DNA of 64,000 nt from Candidatus Altimarinota bacterium (GTDB lineage: Bacteria > Patescibacteriota > Gracilibacteria > BD1-5 > UBA2023). The notes beneath the pieces are model-generated. The model made no database searches. It was not told where the DNA came from and saw nothing but the letters and a program-made list of their open reading frames with translations. The first letter of the stretch is position 1. Each line of letters starts with the position of its first letter. Both the position numbers and the translations under genes were made by a program. The stretch covers positions 62,001 to 126,000 of the forward strand of contig JAQTWX010000001.1 of the NCBI GenBank assembly GCA_028689065.1, written 5' to 3'. Shown in pieces: positions 57,720 to 62,011 of the stretch.

Positions 57720-58979
57720 CTAGAGAAAATGTTCCAGTACGACAATTTGTTCCTCTGAAACCTCTTCAATATCGCGAATATACGGAATAAGAAAAGCAGA
57801 TGGGACGATATGAATATTTATTTTTCTCAGGAATTTTCTGAGAACATACACCTGAAAATATTTACAGCACGTTGCGAGGGGGGTGATGGGGTTGTTGGAA
57901 TGGACTGCTCGGAGAAATGCTCCGAGACCTGGATGTTTTGGAATCATCGCTTCGCTCTCAATTTTTGATGGGAATGGAGAGAGTAAGCCTAAATCGTGAT
58001 AAGTTACAATGGAAAAAATATCAGATTTCACCACTTCCCGAACCGTGAGTGGTCCGAGGAATCGACTCACACTGTGGAGCCAGACGACATCCGGTTGGAA
58101 CTCTCGGAGCTTTTTTCGGATGACAAATGTGGAAGTTATATTACAGAGAGAATACACGAGTCCTGCAAGACGGAGGAGTCTCGAGAATCGGCTTTTTCCT
58201 GAATCCCATCCAAATATTTCCACTTCATACCCGTGCTGTCGAAGGGTTTTTGCGATAGTTTGTACATGAGTTTCTATCCCTCCGAGGAGCGTCGTGTAAT
58301 CACTCGCGAGGAGGATTTTCTTGGTACTCGATGGGAGTATTTCCCGTACTTGTCATATCCATCGCTCTTCTGTGTACCTATCCGCGATACGTCTCGACTC
58401 GTGCGAAAGTGCATCCCATTCAGATTTCTCGGATCACAAGAGTGAGTCGAGAGAAGAATACTTCTCCGAAACTTCCATAATCGTCTGTGTAAGCACTTTT
58501 ATATTCTCTGAATCGCTCGGAGAAAATGGAATCGCGAGCTCCTTCGGAATAAATGAGGTGAGTCCTCCTTTACTGAAACCGATAACTGGAACTCCTTCCG
58601 AGAGAGATTCGAGTGCCGAGAGTCCGAAGGTTTCGAGGAATCGAGACGGCATAAGAGAGAAGTGGGATACTTGAAGTACGCTTCGTATCGCGAAGAGCGA
58701 TTGCCATCCGAAAAAGTATATTTTCGGAACTTCTCCTTCTTCCGAAGTTTCAAAAAGCTCTATCTTTTGAGTGATAGTCTCATCATTGAGGGACGAACAA
58801 TCCTCGAAAAAAGGTGTCCCAGCAAACTTCTGGAAGAGATTTTCTCGGAGAGAACCTTCCCCGAATATGAAGACATTTCCTGGAAGTTCCCCAGTTTTCT
58901 CCACTATCTCCGAAAGTGCCCCAACCACGAGGTCGAAGCCTTTTTCTTTTGCGAGACGTCAGAAGAATATGAAGTTCAT
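57720..58979 (-). CDS. GT4-like glycosyltransferase with swapped GT-B halves
   Basis: The 419-residue code-25 frame has four TGA codons. Residues 1-215 are the nucleotide-sugar-binding half that normally comes second: FIFFGRLAKEKGFDLVV at the very start, FIFGEGSLREN, then the E-x7-E motif ETFGLSALE (116-124) and SEGVPVIGFSKGG, ending in the usual EWDALSHESRRIADRY helix. Residues 220-419 are the half that normally comes first: KKILLASDYTTLLGGIETH, PDVVWLHS, YHDLGLLSP, VPSAFL. No missing half lies upstream or downstream. It probably transfers a sugar to a surface glycan. The order suggests circular permutation. Confidence 0.8.
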
Positions 58980-59051
58980 GGAGAATTTTAAAAGTACATT
59001 ATATAGTAGACTATGTACTATGTACTTTTTTGCAAATAATTTTTATGGTTT

Positions 59052-59231
59052 TTATACCTTTTCTTTACCTAAATCTTCGATTTCGAGCTCTTCAACTGTC
59101 ATCCATTCGATACTACTCTCTTTCAATCCATGCTTCTCATAGAGCAATTCCTCCATTTCCTCAATTTGCATCGGTTCATGCTCCAATACCTTCACTTTTG
59201 CATCCGTAAAATCCAGAATGATAGTTTTCAT
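59052..59231 (-). CDS. 59-residue acidic protein
   Basis: From MKTIILDFTDAKVKV the product has about a third acidic residues (EEMEELLYEKHGLKE). The β-α-α look and the acidity could suit a small partner or antitoxin-like protein, but nothing supports a specific function. It lies 72 bases before the glycosyltransferase and has a terminator-like hairpin just upstream. Confidence 0.6.
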   Translation of the reverse strand: MKTIILDFTDAKVKVLEHEPMQIEEMEELLYEKHGLKESSIEWMTVEELEIEDLGKEKV

Positions 59232-59276
59232 AAAAAAATCGTTAGATGATAAACGATCATGATCTAACGATTTTTT
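59232..59276 (-). terminator. terminator-like hairpin
   Basis: Stem AAAAAAATCGTTAGAT / ATCTAACGATTTTTT with a 14-base loop, between the nuclease gene and the small acidic gene. Confidence 0.7.
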
Positions 59277-59304
59277 GGGAAAATGCAAGTTTAATTTATG
59301 ACTA

Positions 59305-59790
59305 TTATTTAGTCTTCAGATTTATCTGATATTGAATCCTTTTCCCAGAAATAAGACTTTCCATTTCAGAAAGAGTTAGCAAATGGAATCAGAGTGTTTC
59401 TGGATGTAAAGAAATAAAACAAAATTTAAATCTCTCACCAAGAAAACGAGCAAGATTAAATTCATTTTCTGTCGCTCAGAAGAAGAAACCATTCGGATTA
59501 TTTGGTAACTTTTTCTTTGTGGTTTTAAGTTCAATAAGAACTATTTCGGATATATCTCAGATTTCTATTTCAGATAATCCAGAATAAACATCTGGCACAA
59601 GCACTAAATCAAAGGCTTTGGAAAATCTTTTCTCTATACCCATAGCTTCCATAATAAGCCTTCTACTTTCTTTACTCGGCGAACGAAATCTCTTATCTTG
59701 CTCTAACAAAAAAGCAATAGCTTCTTTTTCTGTATTAAGATTATCGAAAGTTATCTTGTACGAATGTGCTCATTTTATTGGTTCTGTCAT
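59305..59790 (-). CDS. PD-(D/E)XK-like nuclease domain protein
   Basis: The 161-residue code-25 frame (four TGA codons) shows FDLVLVPDVYSG, then EIVLIELKTTKKK: an Asp followed by E-x-K, the metal-binding pattern of the restriction-enzyme-like fold. Then comes GFFFGATENEFNLAR and RFKFCFISLH. Fold and function are inferred from this pattern only. It lies 35 bases after the GIY-YIG gene and looks like part of the same unit. Confidence 0.65.
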
Positions 59791-59825
59791 TTTTGGCACG
59801 AAGAAATAATAAAATATAAAACTAT

Positions 59826-60695
59826 TTATTTCAGGGTTTTTCGTTCCATTTCATCGAGAGTTTTTCATTCTTCTGTTTTCCATTCTGTCCAACCATTTGC
59901 AGAACGAGCAAGAACAAAAGAAGCAGCAGAACTTGGGCTATTGAAAATATAATCTTCTAAAAATATGAAAGTATCGGTGTTATATTCTTTGATAACTCCT
60001 TTTTCTAAAAGATTTATTTGAAAACTCTTATACCATCCGTCAGCGACGGAACCCTTGGCAATTTCTATTTTCGCAAGCGAACCTTTTTGTACAAGAAATC
60101 ATTCTGAAATATAAACTCACGTTGCTTGAAATACAGGTCATTTAGATGATCATTTACAAATATATTTCCTTTCTTGTGCAAGAGATTCTATTTTAACCTC
60201 CGTCAATATTGGATAACCGAGAAAAGAAATAAGAAGCTCGATGTTATCGAGAAAATCTTCCATAGTATCAATCTGGTATTCAGGAAGGTTATTTATTTTC
60301 GGCTCAACAGAATTCTCCATAAGAAATACTTTTGCCTGTTTTGTTTTCTGTATTGCTCTTGCCTCAAGATATTTAATATCAGCTTTTGTTAGATTATTAT
60401 TCTGCGATATAAAAGCAATTGCAAAATTCCAAAAATCTTTTTTATTACCATGTGTTGCAATTCGTTCATATAAATTTTCAGCTTCACCAATATATACCAT
60501 ATCTTGTTGGTGAATATTTTTTCAGAAAAGAAAATATATTGCAGGATTGCTCGCTTCTTTTCTATCACTCATTTCTTTAAGGTTTGCTCGGGGAATTATA
60601 ATTCCTTTTCCAATCCAGCTTGAAAGTTCAATAGTTTTAATTCCAGCGGAATTTCCCTGAACAAGGTAAGTTATAAGAGTTTTTCAGCGAGCCAT
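59826..60695 (-). CDS. GIY-YIG nuclease domain protein with DUF4357
   Basis: The 289-residue frame has seven TGA codons. The GIY-YIG-type core is AIYFLFGKN, then MVYIGEAENLYERI and a helix with KADIKYLEARAI. The C-terminal DUF4357-like part reads SPSSAASFVLARSANGWTEWK. Such proteins are found near restriction and defence genes. The next gene is the PD-(D/E)XK-like protein, so the pair may be a nuclease cassette. Fine activity is unknown. Confidence 0.85.
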
Positions 60696-60739: not shown

Positions 60740-62011
60740 TTATTTCCCCTTCCTCTTCCCCACAAACACTCCCAATATCAGAAACAGAATGAGTGAAATA
60801 TACACGGACTCGAAGCTATGCAAGAAGAGGTTCATAGTAAGGACTGCTATAAATGAAGCGAAGAGTGCGGGCGAGAGTGGGAATATGAGCCAGGCGATGG
60901 TTCCTATAATGGCACAGAAGAGGACGAATGCGACAACTCCTCATTCGACCAATTGCTGGATATACCAACTCTCTGGGATGTAGTAATCCTCAGAGGCTTT
61001 TATATCTCCGCCGTAAATAGGATCGTCGGCGAGTTTTACGACATAGCGGTAAGCTGGTCCGGCGGTTCCGAGTCCTTGTCCCATTGGGTGTTCCTGGAAT
61101 CGTTCGATTCCCGTCATGGCACGATCGAAATGCCCCTGAGATGAACCAGATCGGAGGATAATCCGATCAATCGTCCCCTCGTATCGGAGGTAGAAAAGTC
61201 CTAAAAGAACAGCAAGGAGGAGTACGATATATATACTCTCTTTTTTGTATTTTCGCCAAATGGTTCCGAGGGAGAATATTACCAGAGTCACACACCCGAG
61301 AACGATTCCGATAAGTGCACTTCGCGAATATGTCAGAAATACCAGTCCGAGAAGTATGATGGACCAGATTCCTACGAGAAAATGGTATGCTTTTTTGGTT
61401 CGGAAATAGTGAGCGAGAAGTCCCAAGTAGACGATGATAAAATAGGCAGCAGGGTTCGGTCCGTCGAATATTCCCTGAAATCTTCTTACGCGGGCTCCGT
61501 CTATCCCGTGGTAAATAGGCGGTGTTCCTCCGAAGCTCCAGTTAGAGAGATTTGGCGAGAATCCGAAGTGGAGGAGGATGGTTTCGTGGAATACGAACCG
61601 TACGAGAATCCCTATAGCGAGTGCAGAGCTTGCCGAGATAAGGAATATTTTTACATACTGAGAGACACTTCCTACGAGGAGACCGCTTCCGTGTTTTGCC
61701 ACGAGAAAAGCGATGAGAAATTCGAAATCATACCGTCCGCCGTAAACGAGCGATGCAAGTCAGAGTCCATTAACCAGAGTAACTATCACAAGATATCCGA
61801 TGTACGAACCGATCAAATAATCGAGGATATCGAGCTTCGGAAATATTTTCCGTTTCCAGAAATCGAGTACGAGTACGATAATAAGCGTCCCGAGGAATAT
61901 CTCTTTGAAGAAATTTACCCCTGGAATGGCGAGTTTACTTCCGAGAAATACACTTGCAAGTACACTCCAAGGAAGGAGGATGAGAAATATGCGGAAAATA
62001 CGATCGAACAT
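60740..62011 (-). CDS. O-antigen ligase/polymerase-like membrane protein
   Basis: The 423-residue code-25 frame with two TGA codons has about ten membrane segments and a large outside loop (about residues 285-350, DRAMTGIERFQEHPMGQGLG...) with the GLG-type text of Wzy/WaaL ligases. It would link or polymerise surface polysaccharide. The glycosyltransferase downstream fits the same pathway. The gene is more GC-rich than the nuclease pair beside it. Confidence 0.85.

Follow-up and report, generated by a model that had tools for sequence, protein, structure and literature searches.

A circularly permuted GT4-type glycosyltransferase in Gracilibacteria and related lineages

Few enzyme families are as large as the GT4 glycosyltransferases, whose two Rossmann halves usually follow a set order in which the Glyco_transf_4 half is N-terminal and the Glycos_transf_1 half is C-terminal. 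Profile annotation takes this order as fixed, as does structure search that depends on sequence order. We examined a stretch of 64,000 nucleotides from a Candidatus Altimarinota genome (contig JAQTWX010000001.1, positions 62,001 to 126,000; hereafter the window) in which one gene appears to carry the two halves the other way round. Does this locus encode a single glycosyltransferase with a circularly permuted fold, or is the unusual order an artefact or a relic, and by what route could the two halves have changed places? The features on which our analysis rests are collected in Table 1.

Table 1. Features of the permuted glycosyltransferase gene and its surroundings in the window
Feature	Position	Strand	Details
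Permuted GT4-type glycosyltransferase gene	57720..58979	minus	419 aa, table 25, TAG stop at 57720-57722
C-terminal-type (nucleotide-sugar donor) Rossmann half, first	58329..58979	minus	residues 1-217; PF00534 match 3-160
N-terminal-type (acceptor) Rossmann half, second	57723..58328	minus	residues 218-419; PF13439 match 233-414
Junction helices 187-200 and 204-214, then first strand of N-type domain (residue 221)	58338..58421	minus	DSSP on AlphaFold2 model
G-R-L-x3-K-G, residues 7-14	58938..58961	minus	R8 and K13 kept wherever permuted members cover the site
E-x7-E, E116-E124	58608..58634	minus	E116 in 63/63 permuted members; E124 in 28/63
GGIE, residues 233-236, first loop of N-type domain	58272..58283	minus	second Gly 63/63, E 62/63
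HD, residues 328-329 (TYHDLG), N-type domain	57993..57998	minus	H 63/63, D 61/63
Wzy_C O-antigen ligase (PF04932), upstream of the glycosyltransferase on the same strand	60740..62011	minus	Pfam
Low-GC insert between ligase and glycosyltransferase: 78-aa ORF, 195-aa ORF, DUF4357/GIY-YIG-like protein	59052..60695	minus	GC, Pfam

Reading frame, domain order and predicted fold

The gene is read as one unbroken frame with translation table 25, in which TGA specifies glycine. With table 11 it is interrupted by three in-frame TGA codons (G7, G182 and G209), and that reading was discarded. Switching from table 11 to table 25 raises the count of stop-to-stop frames in the window that reach 200 aa from 34 to 77, and TGA is present inside 63 of the 77 (antisense frames are included in these counts). 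In many relatives the same gene holds 4 to 20 in-frame TGA codons. Given this gain in frames and the TGA-rich relatives, the use of table 25 is general in the window and not an ad hoc device for one gene. A first-pass annotation made from the sequence alone had described a single 419-residue frame with flanking gaps of 72 and 61 bases; table-25 translation yields that frame, and the gaps were measured at the same values. The flanking frames on both sides encode other proteins. Before the ATG, at 58980-58990, a purine tract of Shine-Dalgarno type is absent, and several relatives in the window's family have a pyrimidine run (e.g. TTCTCC) ahead of the start codon.

Both halves are recognized by Pfam above the gathering cut-offs, Glycos_transf_1 with 46.1 bits (cut-off 26.4) and Glyco_transf_4 with 49.2 bits (cut-off 28.5). 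Because PF00534 precedes PF13439, the reversed order of GT-B halves proposed in the first-pass annotation is upheld. The canonical order, with the acceptor half N-terminal and the donor half C-terminal, is seen in none of the 63 intact permuted genes that we identified, the window's included, and occurs only in a fused orthologue from one genome (G109). When half-profiles of the permuted group were compared with this orthologue, the N-half was matched first (194 bits) and the C-half second (116 bits); on the permuted genes the C-half comes first and the N-half second. As the order of the half-profiles is exchanged relative to the G109 gene and the halves are complete, the protein is circularly permuted. 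The first-pass annotation had raised this with a question mark, and it is sustained by two complete domains, neither doubled nor absent, in an order kept in 63 genomes. In this arrangement the donor-binding domain leads, the helix that ends an ordinary GT4 chain continues without a break into the acceptor half, and the site of the former interdomain hinge now holds the termini.

An AlphaFold2 model of the window protein, for which 21 relatives were aligned, has a mean pLDDT of 90.2 and a pTM of 0.86. It consists of two complete alpha/beta domains of approximately 210 aa each, and the helices spanning residues 187-214 connect directly to the first strand of the acceptor-type half. A control model of the normal-order G109 protein is of lower confidence (pLDDT 82.1, pTM 0.79). 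Both models were compared with known structures by Foldseek, which is dependent on sequence order. The permuted model matched GtfA, sucrose-phosphate synthase, glycogen synthase and MshA in the PDB, and its alignments with GT4 structures mostly cover 200-230 columns, one half at once, with TMq of about 0.3. The G109 model, in contrast, aligned end-to-end with MshA, PimB', BshA and PimA, mostly over 430-500 columns and with TMq of about 0.4-0.6. We ascribe this difference to the different order of the halves.

The two natural ends of a GT-B protein are close to each other, its last helix folding back to the N-terminal domain, and for this reason the packing, the cleft and the chemistry would be expected to remain unchanged on permutation. 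The high pTM and the conserved residues of both domains suggest that the two domains of the modelled protein face each other as a canonical GT-B cleft. It is unlikely that the permuted protein would fail to form one GT-B fold.

Conservation, active-site residues and gene neighbourhood

Searches with the separate half-profiles identified one intact permuted gene in each of 63 genomes, distributed over three families of the window's class: 21 in the window's own family (f1), 41 in a second (f5) and one in a third (f18). The carrier records are labelled Candidatus Gracilibacteria, candidate division SR1, Absconditabacteria, in one case Peribacteria, or unspecifically Patescibacteria, and the SR1/Absconditabacteria records fall within f5. 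In the window's family a match is present in 23 of 27 genomes, and the reversed order of the translated frames holds down to approximately 30% identity. Order in relatives, which the first-pass annotation had suggested as a check, was read from alignment and half-profiles and is the same in all 63 genomes. PF00534 is matched by all 21 aligned relatives and PF13439 by 20 of them (E <= 0.001).

An odd domain order might also result from misassembly or from a frameshift that joined two partial genes, and in two further f1 genomes (G003 and G025) the gene is indeed broken close to the junction, by a stop codon or a shift of frame. Open frames with the same order and the same junction in 63 genomes speak against such an origin, and since these genomes are independent, both kinds of error can be considered excluded for practical purposes. 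In G003 (L027) the break is an in-frame TAG at the half-half junction, from which two separate domains would be expected unless it is a sequencing error.

A scan of 380 genomes, sampled evenly across the phylum, yielded no full-length permuted match beyond f1, f5 and f18; at E <= 1e-25 its matches outside the window's genome were confined to the C-half and lay in frames that were 399-416 aa long. No additional permuted gene came from a class-wide search with just the N-half. The scan of named genomes used a single peptide pattern, by which rare carriers elsewhere may be missed. No relative was found in viral contigs, and viral fold matches had TMq of at most 0.35. A match on a Monoglobus plasmid, covering 70% of the query, was set aside as probably two neighbouring normal GT4 genes, as it is annotated as two glycosyltransferases and aligns in two pieces. 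A separate observation on the genetic code concerns the only f18 carrier (G232; L104, L151 and L152). None of its 24 long table-11 frames ends in TGA, TGA is rare within its table-25 frames, and its permuted gene has none. TGA thus looks nearly unused in this genome, which possibly represents a stage of code reassignment.

The sequence motifs expected of a GT4 active site are distributed over both halves (Table 1). The first-pass annotation had pointed to E-x7-E in the first half and to GGIE at the start of the second, and both were located. R8 and K13 we take to be the donor phosphate contacts of GT4 enzymes, and the donor-loop glycine is, like them, retained nearly without exception in the permuted genes. 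E124 is less strictly kept, and 35 of the 63 members have N, T, D or S in its place. The variability of this residue might be expected if the protein were a glycosyltransferase relic, catalytically dead or turned to a regulatory or structural role, but R8, K13, E116, the donor-loop GG, GGxE and HD have all been retained despite large divergence. Such retention is what purifying selection on an active site would produce, and we consider a dead relic very unlikely. Split and normal-order orthologues (see below) have the same active-site residues where these are covered, with two exceptions: the normal-order pair (G109 and G067) has lost the donor-loop GG, and the C-half of G089 has Asp in place of the second Glu of E-x7-E. 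From the pattern of residue conservation, the permuted protein is probably an active enzyme. Taken as a whole, the data are best explained by a single, probably active retaining GT4-type glycosyltransferase with a circularly permuted GT-B fold, a reading to which we assign a probability of roughly 0.83.

Some indication of function comes from the neighbouring genes. Among the 11 named f1 loci longer than 6 kb, nine (L064, L067, L070, L071, L072, L073, L082, L084 and L085) carry an O-antigen ligase upstream on the same strand, and the other two are contig-edge fragments (L065 from G022, and L068 from G021, where a partial copy runs off the contig). In most of the nine, the ligase gene abuts or overlaps the glycosyltransferase gene. 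In the window an insert lies between the two, and its GC content (0.32 over 59305-60695) is lower than that of the flanks (0.46 and 0.45). This insert is not part of the enzyme, and it is missing from relatives in which the two genes abut. A sister genome (G023; L067 3104-5851) has an N6-adenine methylase in the same gap, which is possibly an insertion hotspot for restriction-type genes. A Wzx-type flippase is encoded a few genes off in two relatives. The f1 neighbourhood points to a role in lipid-linked surface glycan assembly, in which the glycosyltransferase would most likely add a sugar to the lipid-linked glycan and the neighbouring ligase would later transfer the glycan. In f5 the ligase does not adjoin the glycosyltransferase gene, and the assignment to surface glycans is therefore firm for f1 only and weaker in f5.

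Other architectures and the direction of the permutation

The orthologous group, recovered as a clade with a support of 84 when both halves are used for the tree, holds more than permuted fusions. The fused normal-order gene of G109 encodes 411 aa and has an ordinary interdomain linker. A C-half from this subgroup is present in G067, with a stop at the end of the C-half and a start cut by the contig end. In G104 a C-half gene is followed by an N-half gene 10 bases away and in a different frame, the halves of G089 are separate genes on different contigs, and G105, a genome that is 76% complete, has an N-half alone. The stand-alone C-half of G104 (L101 1943-2830) carries an insertion of about 120 residues after its FGDGEL motif. 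The 182-aa C-half of G089 (L094 5965-6513 / L103 2341-2889) has no N-half beside it and is immediately preceded by a tyrosyl-tRNA synthetase-like gene; the N-half lies beside a RuvB-like gene, both neighbours being named by sequence resemblance only.

Fused normal-order, split and adjacent-reversed states would be expected as traces of a fission with subsequent reversed re-fusion. According to this proposal, the two domains would once have been separate genes that were re-fused in the opposite order. The first-pass annotation had instead put forward duplication with loss of the outer halves, here taken as tandem duplication and in-frame fusion of a GT4 gene before the loss. This is the classical route to permuted proteins, tandem GT4 genes are common, the Monoglobus plasmid match shows the same half-order in two pieces, and the junction is short and clean. 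However, the half-profiles hit no frame of three or four halves (N-C-N, C-N-C or N-C-N-C) in the loci retrieved, and the group does hold half-genes alone (G105, G089), an adjacent reversed pair (G104) and a normal-order fusion (G109). The proposed intermediate is thus lacking from these loci, and we regard duplication as the less likely route. Fission with reversed re-fusion, although not proven, is at least as plausible and is the route that we favour.

It could also be argued that the permuted form is ancestral, and that the split and normal-order genes reflect later fission, re-fusion and a return to normal order. The best tree nests G109 and G067, the normal-order pair, and likewise the split gene of G089 among the permuted genes, and the presence of a normal-order orthologue inside the permuted group implies either a reversion or a poorly resolved tree. 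Within the group, the normal-order and split genes are placed with supports of 36 to 64, which are low for the nodes that matter, the G089 split gene excepted. Moreover, in full tree searches two constraints were still acceptable: one that places the normal-order group outside (p-AU 0.32), and one that keeps a permuted clade with G109/G067, G104 and G105 outside (p-AU 0.13). The N-half tree sets G105, G109 and G104 below all permuted genes and the C-half tree, unlike it, does not. With low supports, acceptable constraints and half-trees that disagree, the trees decide no direction, and an ancestral permuted form appears less likely than not, with a slightly better chance than duplication. The G089 split gene adjoins a permuted f5 gene with support 87 in the both-halves tree and is probably a secondary split.

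Fission and reversed re-fusion would have a wider implication if the Gracilibacteria/Absconditabacteria group keeps all states of the permutation. The process would then be traceable in living relatives, and a GT4 enzyme could be viewed as a machine of two pieces whose order along the chain is free to change; we give this broader view slightly less than an even chance. The existence of a conserved permuted branch means that the order of GT4 domains can change while the domains and active-site residues are retained. The exchange of order accounts for the ease with which annotation turns such genes into fragments or fusions, the more so where TGA is reassigned. The gene also adds a candidate surface-glycan enzyme in ultra-small, mostly uncultured bacteria whose envelope chemistry is little known. 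The chief value of the finding lies in the natural intermediates that the group supplies, with which routes to circular permutation can be tested.

Comparison with known glycosyltransferases

The protein shares with GT4 enzymes (MshA, PimA, PimB', BshA and glycogen synthase-like proteins) both Rossmann domains, PF00534 and PF13439, together with the donor-site R/K and Glu and the acceptor-domain GGxE and HD, and solved GT4 structures are the best fold matches for either order. It differs from them in its reversed domains, in the half-only structure match and in having its ends at the former interdomain hinge. Because it is GT4-like in domains and motifs and departs from the family in domain order alone, we regard it as a variant of known GT4 enzymes. 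The retaining beta-Kdo transferases KpsC and WbbB (GT107/GT99) are likewise unusual GT-B enzymes of surface-glycan synthesis, with displaced and reduced domains and helical insertions according to the available part of the source. As that part does not describe a reversed domain order for them, they were dropped as precedents for the permutation.

The author of the first-pass annotation knew of no described permuted GT4. That statement stands for the open-access literature, in which we found no description of a permuted GT4 or of a bacterial reversed GT-B enzyme, but a precedent for reversed GT-B halves does exist among eukaryotes: in Entamoeba and Dictyostelium (Amoebozoa), Alg13 and Alg14 are fused in reversed order (PMC8993221). 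The two halves are mostly separate genes in that clade, with several re-fusions (PMC8993221). As far as we have found, then, reversed order is new here for GT4 and for bacteria, and the reversed GT-B fusion was already known. The window protein has no GT28/Glyco_tran_28_C homology, as a Pfam search extended to an E value of 10 gave GT4-type domains only. Both systems share GT-B halves that exist as two genes and have in some cases been re-fused in the opposite order. Alg13-Alg14 is an inverting, GT28/MurG-like eukaryotic enzyme, whereas the window gene encodes a bacterial, predicted retaining GT4-type glycosyltransferase whose fused reversed form is, in contrast to that of Alg13-Alg14, predominant in two lineages.
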